Shown: one piece after another, positions 17,967 to 24,076 of the stretch
Numbering within the stretch: the first letter of the stretch is position 1
Layout: each line of letters begins with the position of its first letter
Origin: Lysobacteraceae bacterium
Lineage (GTDB): Bacteria > Bdellovibrionota > UBA1018 > JAGTJX01
Assembly: GCA_023657465.1 (NCBI GenBank)
Contig: JAGTJX010000003.1
Coordinates: forward strand, 862,830-926,829
Direction of reading: 5' to 3'
Length of the DNA stretch: 64,000 nt
The notes under the pieces: generated by a model
Told to the model about the DNA's origin: nothing
What the model saw: only the letters and a program-made list of their open reading frames with translations
The model's database searches: none
Translations under genes and position numbers: made by a program

Positions 17967-18044
17967 ATTCGCATTACTCGATGTTCCTGCTGATTACTCT
18001 AACTTCATTATAGATTTCGTATTCATTGATAGAACAATCCTTAC

Positions 18045-18075
18045 AAAACCGTCAAATCAACTAAAACGCTTAATG
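18045..18075 (+). repeat. Direct repeat, left copy
   Basis: 31 bases beginning AAAACCGTCAAATCAA recur at 23906-23936 with one mismatch (A18066 versus G23927). Weaker similarity continues for about 20 bases, including GCAATTCTT. The right copy is the upstream part of a murE remnant. The rest of the 320-bp gap between 17911 and 18231 holds the terminator and AT-rich sequence with no gene. Confidence 0.75.
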
Positions 18076-18154
18076 GAAGGATTGGCAATTCTTTAATAAA
18101 AAAACGGCTTCAAAATTTGGAACGTTATATCTATTAAAGTTTAACAGCTTTTCG

Positions 18155-19564
18155 GAATCTAGCTCAAAAAATGTGAAGTAATAAAAGATATAGAAGAGAT
18201 GAGGTCCTCGCTCAGGGTCTGTTAGGATATTTGTACCAACAAAACGCCGTACAAACCAAGAGAAGGACCTCGAGGATGAGTATACCTAGATTTTTACGTT
18301 CTGCATTCGCTGGATATGAAATTTTTGAAATAAAAGAGTGTTTAAGTGAACAGAGAATCTGTTTATGGGTCAAAGCGGAAGAGAATAAGGAAGCGCTTTG
18401 CCATAGATGCAGATCTCCCATCCATTGTGATGGCAAGTACCTTCAAAAAATTCAATGCATGCCAGTGATGGGACTCAGAGTGGAAGTAACGCTGACTAGG
18501 AGACGTGGGTACTGCAAGGGATGCAAGAAGTCGCGAGCAGAGCTTGTTGAATGGCTCAGTGAAGAGACCCCACATCTGAGCGATGACTACGCTCACTGGC
18601 TAGGAAAGCTAGCGGAGTTTGCTCCGATCTCAAGAGCTGCAAAACTGATGGGACTTGATTCGATGACACTGTGGAGAGTGGATTTTGAGCAAATGAAGCG
18701 GAGACTTCAGAACTATAAGATTCCATCCGTCACACATCTGTCTGTAGATGAGGTCTATGTAGTGAGAAGGCAGAGAGGAGTTCCACTACCGAGAGAGAAG
18801 CGATTTTTTACCATTGTTTCGGATCTAAAAACTAAAAAAGTGATTTGGGTGTCAGAAGGACGCTCAAAAGCCGCATTAGATCAGTTCTATATTCTGATTG
18901 GCAAAGAGGCTTGTAAGAAGATTCAAGCTGTAGCGATGGATCAGTTTGATGGGTATTCGTCGTCTACAGCAGAGCATTGTCCTAGAGCCACAATCGTATG
19001 GGACAGATTCCATCTGATGCAGAACTTAGGTGAGATCATCAACGAGACTCGCTTGCAATTACACTCAGAGTTCGCTAGCGGTTCTCCTCTGCATCGGCTG
19101 ACCAGGGGAAAATACAAGTACATCTATTTGAAAAAAGCGTCTCGACGAACACAACACGAGAAGCGACTGATTGAAGATGTCACAGCAGAGAATGAATACT
19201 TTCTACGCCTAGAGCTCATCAAAGAGAGAATGTTTCAGTTCTTTAATGCAGCTACTGAAGAAGAAGCCAAACATATCTTTGATGAAGTAGGAGAATGGAT
19301 CTATAGATCTGGGTTCACGAGACTGATGGACTGGCACAACAGGCTCGAGAGATCCTGGAGCACACTCAAAAACTACTTCAGACACAGAATCACATCTGCG
19401 ACTTCCGAAGGAATCAACAACGTCATTAAAGCACTCATCAGAAGAGCGTACGGCTACAGAAACATGCACTATTTTAAGCTCAAAATCATGCAAGTCTGTG
19501 GCTATCTCAACTCCCAATTCTGTCCTCTAATGAAATCAACTACTTAACAAAATGTGAGGAAGAG
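18155..19564 (+). mobile_element. ISL3-family insertion sequence (approximate limits)
   Basis: One transposase gene fills the element. ACAGCTTTTCG stands at 18144-18154 and 19565-19575, an 11-base direct repeat that could be, or include, the target duplication. I used it to set the limits. ISL3 members usually give 8-bp duplications, and I could not find clear terminal inverted repeats, so the ends are provisional. Confidence 0.5.
18276..19547 (+). CDS. ISL3-family transposase
   Basis: About 423 residues from ATG 18276 (AAGGA eight bases upstream; the frame is open from 18231). The N-terminal zinc-binding region has CHRCRS and YCKGCKK. A helix-turn-helix-like ISRAAKLMGLDSMTLWRV follows. The DDE domain shows the first Asp in LSVDEVYV, the second in AVAMDQFDGY / IVWDRFHLMQNL, and the Glu in TSEGINNVIKALIRRAYGYRN. 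The gene appears intact. A GAGGTCCT/AGGACCTC pair in its leader (18201-18208, 18264-18271) could fold and limit read-through expression. Confidence 0.92.
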   Translation: MSIPRFLRSAFAGYEIFEIKECLSEQRICLWVKAEENKEALCHRCRSPIHCDGKYLQKIQCMPVMGLRVEVTLTRRRGYCKGCKKSRAELVEWLSEETPHLSDDYAHWLGKLAEFAPISRAAKLMGLDSMTLWRVDFEQMKRRLQNYKIPSVTHLSVDEVYVVRRQRGVPLPREKRFFTIVSDLKTKKVIWVSEGRSKAALDQFYILIGKEACKKIQAVAMDQFDGYSSSTAEHCPRATIVWDRFHLMQNLGEIINETRLQLHSEFASGSPLHRLTRGKYKYIYLKKASRRTQHEKRLIEDVTAENEYFLRLELIKERMFQFFNAATEEEAKHIFDEVGEWIYRSGFTRLMDWHNRLERSWSTLKNYFRHRITSATSEGINNVIKALIRRAYGYRNMHYFKLKIMQVCGYLNSQFCPLMKSTT

Positions 19565-19658
19565 ACAGCTTTTCGACTAAAAGTTGGACACCTGTTAGAG
19601 TTATGGGCAGTGTTCATTACTATTCCTATATTTTATCCACTAATGACTTTTCTAAAAT

Positions 19659-19675
19659 TTGGCACGTTATGTGCT
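19659..19675 (+). promoter_or_regulatory. Sigma-54-like promoter
   Basis: TTGGCACGTTATGTGCT has GG and GC separated by exactly 10 bases and matches all but two defined positions of the YTGGCACGrNNNTTGCW consensus. It faces the small secreted-protein gene at 19776. A decayed 16/17 copy (AAAATTTGGAACGTTAT, 18112-18128) that lost the -12 GC lies on the other side of the insertion sequence. Confidence 0.6.
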
Positions 19676-19692
19676 TTATATGGCTATGTCGG

Positions 19693-19725
19693 AACTCTTC
19701 GATTTGCATGTTAAATCGAAGAGTT
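19693..19725 (+). other. Perfect 13-bp hairpin in the 5' leader
   Basis: AACTCTTCGATTT (19693-19705) pairs fully with AAATCGAAGAGTT (19713-19725) across a 7-base loop. There is no T-run, so it is not an intrinsic terminator. It lies between the sigma-54-like promoter and the gene and is followed by a small GAGC-aat-GCTC stem (19733-19743). It could stabilise the mRNA or bind a regulator. Confidence 0.6.
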
Positions 19726-19775
19726 TAGGTGCGAGCAATGCTCGGTAAACATTAGTTTAGTTAAGAGGAGTTTTT

Positions 19776-20108
19776 GTGAAAAAAATACTATTGATAGCTT
19801 TGGCTATGACCGCGATTTTCTCTAATGCTGTTTATGCTCGCGAGATTGAAGCGACTTGCATGGTGATGGAAAAAGATTACGGAAATTGTGACCTAGATGA
19901 AGAAAACAAGGTTTGTTCAGTAAAAGAAATACAGTTTGCGGCCCATCCATCTGAAAACGGAGAAGAGGCTTTTATTGTAGTTAGCTTTTCCAGCAAAGAA
20001 GAAACAACAATTAAAGCCAAAAAAGGACACTTCTACCTTCTTGATTCACACGTGACTCTTTCAAATGGGCTTAGCGTTACTTGTGCAACACATGCAAAAT
20101 TTAATTAA
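19776..20108 (+). CDS. Small secreted protein of unknown function
   Basis: 110 residues from GTG 19776, with a strong AGAGGAG five bases upstream. A signal peptide (KKILLIALAMTAIFSNAVYA) is followed by a strand-rich 90-residue domain with four cysteines (TCMVM, NCDLDEENKVCSV, VTCATH), probably two disulfides. It sits alone between two insertion sequences with a sigma-54-like promoter and a structured leader. Function unknown. Confidence 0.65.
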   Translation: MKKILLIALAMTAIFSNAVYAREIEATCMVMEKDYGNCDLDEENKVCSVKEIQFAAHPSENGEEAFIVVSFSSKEETTIKAKKGHFYLLDSHVTLSNGLSVTCATHAKFN

Positions 20109-20235
20109 CCCCTAGTTTGTCGCTCAACGATTGCGAGGGTGAATAAGAGATTGAGGCGCAAGCTGTGGATTTAAACCACTAGTTTTAAATATGGGGATAG
20201 CGTCCGAAAGTCCTTGGTACAATTTTCACTTAACA

Positions 20236-21333
20236 TCAATTCACAAACTGAGCTCCAGCAAATTCAATCTTCATTTTCCCGTCTAGTTTGAGTGTATCAC
20301 TCCAATATTTTTCCCATTCATTTGAATTCGTAAATCTCTTCAGAATGATCTTCGTCATCTGTGCTGCTCCCTTGGGACTCCAGTTGCATCCGATTCGTTT
20401 GAGTCGTAGTTTTATTTCTCTCATCATGCGCTCAATGATGGAGCTCACTTTCGGAGGAGCATCCCCCGTCCTGATCCAGACTCTGACATAGTTAAAGAGC
20501 TTTGCTTTTGCATTCTCTACATATGTCGCAGTTTGAAAATACTGCTTTTCTTTCAGATCTTTCACGAGTGCATTCATTTGCCTTTCCGCATTAAATACCG
20601 AGACCTCTAGATTTAGAATTTCTTCGGTTTTTACTTTGTCTCTTGGTTCGTTGGGTAGCGGGATTCTCATGATTTCATGAAGCTGGTCTTTCACTTTTCT
20701 GGTTTCTTCGTTATTTGCTTCATCCTGGTACTTCATCACAGACTTCAGATCATACGTCAGATGCCACTGGCAGCGCTGCTGGGTCTTTGCTAGTTTTCCT
20801 AGTCCTCGTTCAATGGCTAGTTCTCCATCACTCACTAAGAGCTCTGCTATGGGCTTAGATTTCAGCTTGGGATGGTGATTAGCCCGTTTTACGAGTCTCC
20901 CAATTTCGTTCCATTTTTCTTCATTGAAGACTCCCATGGGAATCGTTTTGCCGTGCTTGTCGATCCCTAGAATCACTCGAATTTGTTCAAGAGGTCTATT
21001 GTCAGCATCTCGTTTTGGGTTTTTCTTCTCATCCTCTTTTTGAGCGTTCGTCTTGAACCTGGGATACCCAGTTCCATCTGCAACAATTGTAACGAGCTCT
21101 TTCTGTTCCAGCTTTAAGTGAGCAGAGTCAGTCTTCTGAACCCAAGTATGGATTTTACTTTTTCCGAGTGGGTTGCCACCAATATCTGTCATGTGTTTTG
21201 CTGATCGTCTGTAGCTCTGGTGACTTGCAGTCTCGCATGCAATTTTTTCGAGTTCTAACGTATGCGACGTGTAGAGCTTAACGTTTAAAAACTGTCTTAG
21301 TGGAATGAACGATTCCTTGCAGTTTTTTTGCAT
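20236..21333 (-). CDS. ISH6-like transposase, catalytic part (second frame)
   Basis: 365 residues as an independent frame. Features recall ISH6 and the wider mutator-like group: a PLRQFLNV...SHQSYRRSAKH segment, first Asp in VADGTGYP, second in LLVSDGELAIERGL, the QRCQWHL helix and the Glu in SIIERMMREIKLRLKRIG followed by NWSPKGAAQM. Its natural N-terminus is encoded in the preceding frame, which meets it at an A7 run (21323-21329). A -1 shift there would give about 467 residues, close to ISH6 transposases. Without a shift the N-terminal domain is missing. Confidence 0.75.
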   Translation of the reverse strand: MQKNCKESFIPLRQFLNVKLYTSHTLELEKIACETASHQSYRRSAKHMTDIGGNPLGKSKIHTWVQKTDSAHLKLEQKELVTIVADGTGYPRFKTNAQKEDEKKNPKRDADNRPLEQIRVILGIDKHGKTIPMGVFNEEKWNEIGRLVKRANHHPKLKSKPIAELLVSDGELAIERGLGKLAKTQQRCQWHLTYDLKSVMKYQDEANNEETRKVKDQLHEIMRIPLPNEPRDKVKTEEILNLEVSVFNAERQMNALVKDLKEKQYFQTATYVENAKAKLFNYVRVWIRTGDAPPKVSSIIERMMREIKLRLKRIGCNWSPKGAAQMTKIILKRFTNSNEWEKYWSDTLKLDGKMKIEFAGAQFVN

Positions 21334-23001: not shown

Positions 23002-23037
23002 GCGTCCGAAAGTTAATCACTTTTGGGCGTTTTCATT
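23002..23037. terminator. Terminator between convergent genes
   Basis: An 11-12 bp stem with two wobble pairs (GCGTCCGAAAGT against ACTTTTGGGCG), a 5-base loop, then TTTCATTT. It lies between the HELAH gene and the PIN gene. A half copy of the stem (AGCGTCCGAAAGT) occurs at 20199-20211. Confidence 0.55.
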
Positions 23038-23110
23038 TCTATGAAGGAACATTCCCCATTCCCTGCCCTGACTTCTACTAAGTATTGTCCATTCTTAAAT
23101 TGTGAGGCAA

Positions 23111-23804: not shown

Positions 23805-23905
23805 GTTATACTTAACGTATTGAAATCTCTATGGAATAACACCCCAAAATACACTGTTCCGCCTAATGGAAAGAATGTCCATTTAATCCGGTAGGCCTGG
23901 TTTCT

Positions 23906-24076
23906 AAAACCGTCAAATCAACTAAAGCGCTTAATGAGAATAATAGCAATTCTTGAATGGAAGGTGTTTGCGTTCTCATTGCTGGCAAAGGGCATGAGGA
24001 TTATCAGATCAGTGGGTCCAAGAATCACTCGTTAGACGACCGCAACGCAGCGAAAGCTGCTCTGTCAAAACATTGA
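23906..24076 (+). pseudogene. murE: murE 3' remnant (and right copy of the direct repeat)
   Basis: Reading from 23957 gives GVCVLIAGKGHEDYQISG, then NHSLDDRNAAKAALSKH and TGA: the C-terminal end of UDP-MurNAc-tripeptide ligase, whose family motif is VLIAGKGHEDYQ...DR. Upstream in the same frame TVKSTKALNE fits the preceding helix, then TGA (23954-23956) interrupts it. Nothing else of the roughly 490-residue enzyme is present. Bases 23906-23936 repeat 18045-18075. This is a scar of recombination or of excision of a larger element, not a functional gene. Confidence 0.75.

Follow-up and report, generated by a model that had tools for sequence, protein, structure and literature searches.

Why a gene for a small secreted protein, apparently alone in mobile DNA, should carry a sigma-54-like promoter and a perfect hairpin in its leader is the question raised by this locus. 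The window (the whole 64-kb stretch of DNA that was analysed) was examined together with the rest of its genome and the genomes of relatives, and the apparently lone gene seems to belong to a secreted-protein regulon; with a probability of about two in three this is a group of envelope and secreted proteins under a sigma-54 activator, which this lineage has equipped with a structured 5′ leader that acts post-transcriptionally. The promoter word, the activator site, their recurrence, the covariation of paired bases and the signal peptides are observed features, to which the other steps of this reading are a proposed extension. The encoded protein (cysteines at residues 28, 38, 47 and 103) has no relatives in 58 genomes (self only) or in GTDB contigs and no Pfam match above cut-off, and an AlphaFold2 model of the mature protein is uninformative (mean pLDDT 42.9).

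Table 1. Features at and around the window gene (window coordinates).
Feature	Position	Strand	Evidence or remark
Repeat A (~180 bp), right half	18041-18100	+	nhmmer E 6e-13; blastn to C3_328 and C1_345
TTTGGAACGTTAT..., 'decayed promoter' of the original prediction	18116-18131	+	Excised site aligned with C3_328 and C1_345
ISL3-type element (18154-19566) with its duplications	18146-19574	+	Pfam DDE_Tnp_ISL3, E 2.9e-49
UAS (predicted activator site) TGGACACCTGTTAGAGTTATGGGCAG, consensus TTgACAgCTGTCTAAAtTTTAGACAG	19585-19610	+	Relatives-trained matrix
Sigma-54 -24/-12 promoter TGGCACGTTATGTGCT	19660-19675	+	Word match
Leader helix 1, AACTCTTCGATTT-GCATGTT-AAATCGAAGAGTT	19693-19725	+	13-bp perfect stem, 7-nt loop
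Leader helix 2, CGAG...CTCG	19732-19744	+	Family's outer pair broken in window copy
Conserved tail TAAACATTAG (family NAAACATTGG)	19746-19755	+	Unpaired in family consensus; 9-row and 20-row alignments
RBS AGAGGAG	19764-19770	+	5 nt before GTG
Orphan secreted protein, 110 aa	19776-20108	+	GTG start at 19776; signal peptide by eye; 4 Cys
Two further A repeats	23006-23093, 23823-23978		Flank PIN toxin / ribbon-helix-helix antitoxin pair

The promoter TGGCACGTTATGTGCT differs from TGGCACGN4TTGCW by one mismatch, and 10 nt separate its GG (19661-19662) from its GC (19673-19674), so the spacing is that of a sigma-54 promoter, just as the original prediction had described it. Within the window such a word is weak when taken alone (11 matches with up to 2 mismatches, 7.3 expected), and over the whole genome TGGCACGN4TTGC is found 57 times with at most 1 mismatch versus 15 times for the reversed control. 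A second conserved block, first spotted by eye, lies 60-100 bp further upstream of the promoter; a matrix for this predicted activator site (UAS) was built from 25 sites of relatives and none of the own genome. With that matrix the window UAS scores 17.3 bits, a value matched by none of 1000 shuffles. It begins 10 bp past the target duplication of an insertion sequence and 75 bp ahead of the -24 box; an enhancer site had been envisaged upstream of 18144, and the candidate that was found lies downstream of that element. The UAS would be bound by a bacterial activator, for which the genome offers some 18 full Sigma54_activat domains as candidates; rpoN is present (Sigma54_DBD at C4:671349, E 2.2e-65), as it is in 52 of the 56 other genomes searched. 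With rpoN, a near-consensus box and an independently trained matrix that matches at the expected distance, the predicted sigma-54 control is well supported at the level of sequence, and the gene is very probably sigma-54-dependent. The usual spacing from the -12 element to the transcription start, by which starts are placed here, would put that of the window gene at about 19685-19687.

Recurrence of the UAS-promoter pair was assessed with the pattern ACANNTGT-N58-88-TGGCAYN6TGC and its reversal as control. The pair occurs 15 times in the own genome (reversed control, 0) and 62 times across 57 relatives (reversed control, 4), with at least one copy in 39 of them. All 14 promoter copies tested with the UAS matrix (those at 13 of the leader copies described below, and C3_328, whose leader is truncated) are matched, each at p ≤ 0.011 and 12 at p ≤ 0.001; among 12 other sigma-54-like sites, chosen by the authors from the 57, the UAS is present in 5 and absent in 7. 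Behind the relatives' sites stands a secreted- or lipoprotein-type ORF in 27 of the 41 distinct readable cases (of the 62), and in 18 of 25 where the second half-site is present. Because UAS-promoter sites of relatives precede such ORFs, the sigma-54/UAS regulon extends beyond the leader. The UAS-promoter pattern also stands before the gene of an AAA+ activator at C2:780781 (L154), which for that reason was considered as the regulator and was dropped when the UAS matrix rejected its upstream site (p 0.48); its best NCBIfam models describe sigma-54 activators in general, and none of the top 25 passes its cut-off. At C2:780781-782401 two sigma-54 activator genes stand back to back, one of them encoding 303 aa without a sensor domain.

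In its -24 GG and -12 GC elements, its palindromic site 60-100 bp upstream and its envelope and lipoprotein targets, this arrangement resembles promoters served by sigma-54 (RpoN) and bacterial enhancer-binding proteins; PMC3162934 argues that sigma-54 is a controller of the cell exterior, envelope and lipoprotein genes included. Unlike the described systems, it has a site sequence and an orphan secreted target set that match no description found; in open-licence papers, as represented by their titles and the openings of their abstracts, no description of the leader or the UAS was found. Sigma-54 control of a lone secreted protein had been called unexpected. Neither word is supported: such control of envelope genes is established (PMC3162934), the UAS precedes secreted and lipoprotein genes order-wide, and a sigma-54 box stands before the leader at 14 of its 19 places in the own genome.

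The hairpin in the window's leader is indeed a 13-bp stem without mismatches; the whole window has only two other perfect inverted repeats of at least 10 bp (loop 3-12). As had been foreseen, no T-run follows the hairpin and a strong ribosome-binding site does; no terminator is predicted at the leader. The window leader folds with z = -3.0, and 2 of 200 shuffles fold equally well. When 191 bases around promoter and leader were compared with the own genome, 5 further matches (E<1e-9) were obtained, and the genes behind them all differ, each with a signal peptide by eye. Leader models were built stepwise (R1, 6 MAFFT-aligned rows; R2, 16 rows; R3, 20 rows), and the leader is found at 19 places in the own genome, 18 of them with E<0.01; since these 18 are training rows of R3, C4:853240 (E 0.10) is the only own-genome copy new to that model. 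Before that, R1 with its six training rows had detected 16 places (E<1).

Comparison of the copies shows that the most constant stretch is the near-invariant tail AAACATTGG. In helix 1 and helix 2 (CCGAG/CUCGG) 13 of 22 pairs are changed on both sides among 20 rows, and the covariation is 0.353 versus 0.193 (sd 0.016) when shuffled, in an alignment that was fitted to the model and leans towards its structure. In a structure-free MAFFT alignment of 9 rows the covariation is 0.276 versus 0.178 (sd 0.021) when shuffled, a value reached in 0 of 500 shuffles, and 5 of 18 pairs are changed on both sides, a number reached in 31 of 500; kinship among leader copies inflates such shuffle tests. In C4_42, C3_72 and C4_434 helix 2 is replaced by CUCACG/CGUGGG, a compensatory replacement. 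The family displays the conserved secondary structure and compensatory changes expected of a structured cis-regulatory leader RNA. The C3_174 leader has no folding advantage over shuffles, and the C3_40 leader reaches its lowest energy in a fold other than the family structure. None of 22 loci, nor the window region, matches Rfam 15, and a c-di-GMP-like motif considered in class-2 leaders found no Rfam support. The three copies with replaced helix 2 (L071, L074, L084) also share a larger helix-1 loop (ACGARAGG...UGGGCGG...) and form a subclass; the gene behind L084 (C4_434) encodes a 272-aa protein that is ADP-ribosyltransferase-like by eye.

Among the relatives the leader is convincing only in G021 and G027, both in the R3 training set, and G018, all of one genus; the G018 leader (E 0.0058) is outside the training set, in a genome of another family, and closely resembles the G027 training row. 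The stretch checked near it contains no ORF over 50 aa. R2 matches L079-L082 in relatives were discarded as coding-like or missing the tail, and L086 likewise; an exact leader pattern had one match in GTDB contigs, by chance, inside a GC-rich coding region, and none in viral contigs.

Of the 19 own leader copies, 13 have a sigma-54 box (score ≥11.5 of 13.5) no more than 80 nt upstream, 8 of these with a box-to-leader spacing of 10-12 nt, and C4_434, with a one-change box further upstream, brings the count to the 14 given above. No box was found at the other 5, and by eye the three relatives' copies have no clear one; among these eight, only G018 scores for the UAS, weakly (p 0.024). Because eight leader copies lack a clear sigma-54 box, leader and promoter are, as far as sequence tells, not inseparable. 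The proteins behind the leader copies are mostly unrelated and mostly bear signal peptides: a crude signal-peptide rule is positive for 15 of 18 leader genes versus 25 of 113 baseline ORFs, excluding one place where an insertion sequence follows the leader (C4_439), and two of the three genes missed look signal-peptide-bearing by eye. Two leader genes depart from the secreted type: the one at C4_443 encodes a GNAT-like protein, and the one at C4_263, which lies 90 nt downstream of its leader and is rule-positive, encodes a membrane protein.

Around the gene lies cassette DNA, bounded by repeats, that includes toxin-antitoxin genes, with Fic, TumE, PIN and antitoxin-type domains recognised by Pfam. 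Repeat A (24 nhmmer matches in 16 stretches plus the window; by DNA found in the own genome only, 1 of 58) follows several leader genes and also separates toxin-antitoxin genes and secreted orphans. The ISL3 element of the original prediction is borne out by its transposase domain and by a target duplication of 8 bp, AGCTTTTC, found at 18146 and 19567; its left end has a 92.5% match at C4_263. Insertion split the upstream unit of the window gene just upstream of the UAS, which was spared. The supposed decayed copy of the promoter does exist as TTTGGAACGTTAT, 121 bp rather than 118 bp away once the element is removed, but it is not a relic: because it also occurs in C1_345 and C3_328 without any -12 box, it is by its sequence context a shared piece of the unit and no relic promoter.

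These surroundings bear on other explanations of the leader. It could be functionless if promoter, leader and signal peptide were duplicated as a unit whose genes diverged or were swapped, the likeness of the copies being that of recent descent; the window, C1_345, C3_174 and C3_328 do share upstream DNA (up to ~300 bp, 73-86% identity), and the 3′ repeats suggest that units have been shuffled repeatedly. The other copies, however, have the leader alone in common, with promoter spacing changed or the promoter absent, paired bases change together, and three genomes of a different family contain diverged copies that retain helices and tail, so that this origin appears unlikely. A read-through switch, with helix 1 acting as attenuator, terminator or ligand switch, would suit a structured leader directly behind a promoter, but it fits poorly with the missing T-run and terminator prediction and with the lack of any Rfam riboswitch match at the 22 loci and the window region; in the window copy helix 1 could form an anti-RBS pairing, which by eye is not kept in others. 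We regard such a switch as very improbable.

Chromosomal integrons carry cassette arrays in which orphan secreted proteins and toxin-antitoxin genes lie between repeats, and the integron core site is GTTRRRY. The cassette-like arrays of this genome are similar in that their repeats enclose secreted orphans and toxin-antitoxin pairs, copies of repeat A tend to break near one point, and the tail contains GGTAAAC, one base off that core; hairpin and tail might accordingly be a DNA recombination site (attI/attC-like) that captures cassettes behind the promoter. Unlike in such arrays, no integron integrase was found among 18 Phage_integrase matches (genome 96% complete). Three Xer-sized proteins of these were scanned with NCBIfam and the remainder judged by eye; two score 122 and 126 bits versus an integron integrase cut-off of 265 and match far better as XerC/XerD, and the third is unmatched. 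Most leader copies, unlike integron cassettes, have their own promoter, and inspection by eye showed no attC cores (RYYYAAC...GTTRRRY). The leader is sense-oriented before the gene in the copies read, and the GTT core is missing at the tail; a recombination site has very little likelihood.

The preferred reading remains a sigma-54/activator regulon with a leader that functions as RNA. Promoter and leader structure are well supported; the role of the leader we infer. An enhancer-binding protein would bind the palindromic CTGTCTAAANTTTAGACAG, at a distance of ~60-100 bp ahead of the -24 box, and open the sigma-54 promoter, the transcript would start ~7 nt before helix 1, and the mRNA would carry between its 5′ end and the RBS a compact leader comprising helix 1, helix 2 and single-stranded AAACAUUGG. 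Because it is kept across otherwise unrelated secreted genes, the leader most likely acts at a post-transcriptional step: the 5′ helix may shield the mRNA against decay from its 5′ end, and the conserved tail may offer a place to bind for one shared trans-acting factor, either an RNA-binding protein or a small RNA, which would set translation or stability of the gene group. That the leader is a functional RNA is probable; this specific post-transcriptional mechanism is tentative, at somewhat less than even odds. More speculative, and rather doubtful, is the idea of a regulon-wide RNA address, in which the leader was repeatedly placed behind sigma-54/UAS promoters and its AAACAUUGG tail is read by one trans-acting factor; such an address might conceivably mark orphan secreted-protein mRNAs for shared handling, be it stability, translation or membrane delivery.

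Stem-loops at the 5′ end stabilise mRNA, as in the ompA 5′ UTR, and the leader is similar in placing a stem-loop a few nt from the predicted 5′ end of an mRNA for a secreted or envelope protein; it differs in that two helices and a conserved tail are common to many unrelated genes. A single odd promoter thereby becomes a two-layer regulon open to testing, the one layer a predicted activator site, spread over the order, through which sigma-54 would control secreted proteins and lipoproteins, the other a class of leader RNA that is enriched in this lineage, has no Rfam entry and stands before mostly orphan secreted proteins. Should the leader be read in trans, a whole set of secreted proteins sharing no other feature found here would answer to one factor.

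Further observations concern the cassette DNA. At L108 9000-19000 (C3:38-48 kb) secreted orphans and toxin-antitoxin genes (Fic with a Phd-type partner, TumE with its neighbour) form an array with 180-bp repeats between them, and no integron integrase was found. Half copies of repeat A, a repeat seen for example at L108 17894-18068 and window 23823-23978, tend to have an end around the CCATTTAATCC/GGTA junction, as if recombining there. A second transposase-like region lies at window 20196-21000 (ORF 20236-21333), and an identical copy of it (805 bp compared) is located directly behind the C4_439 leader.
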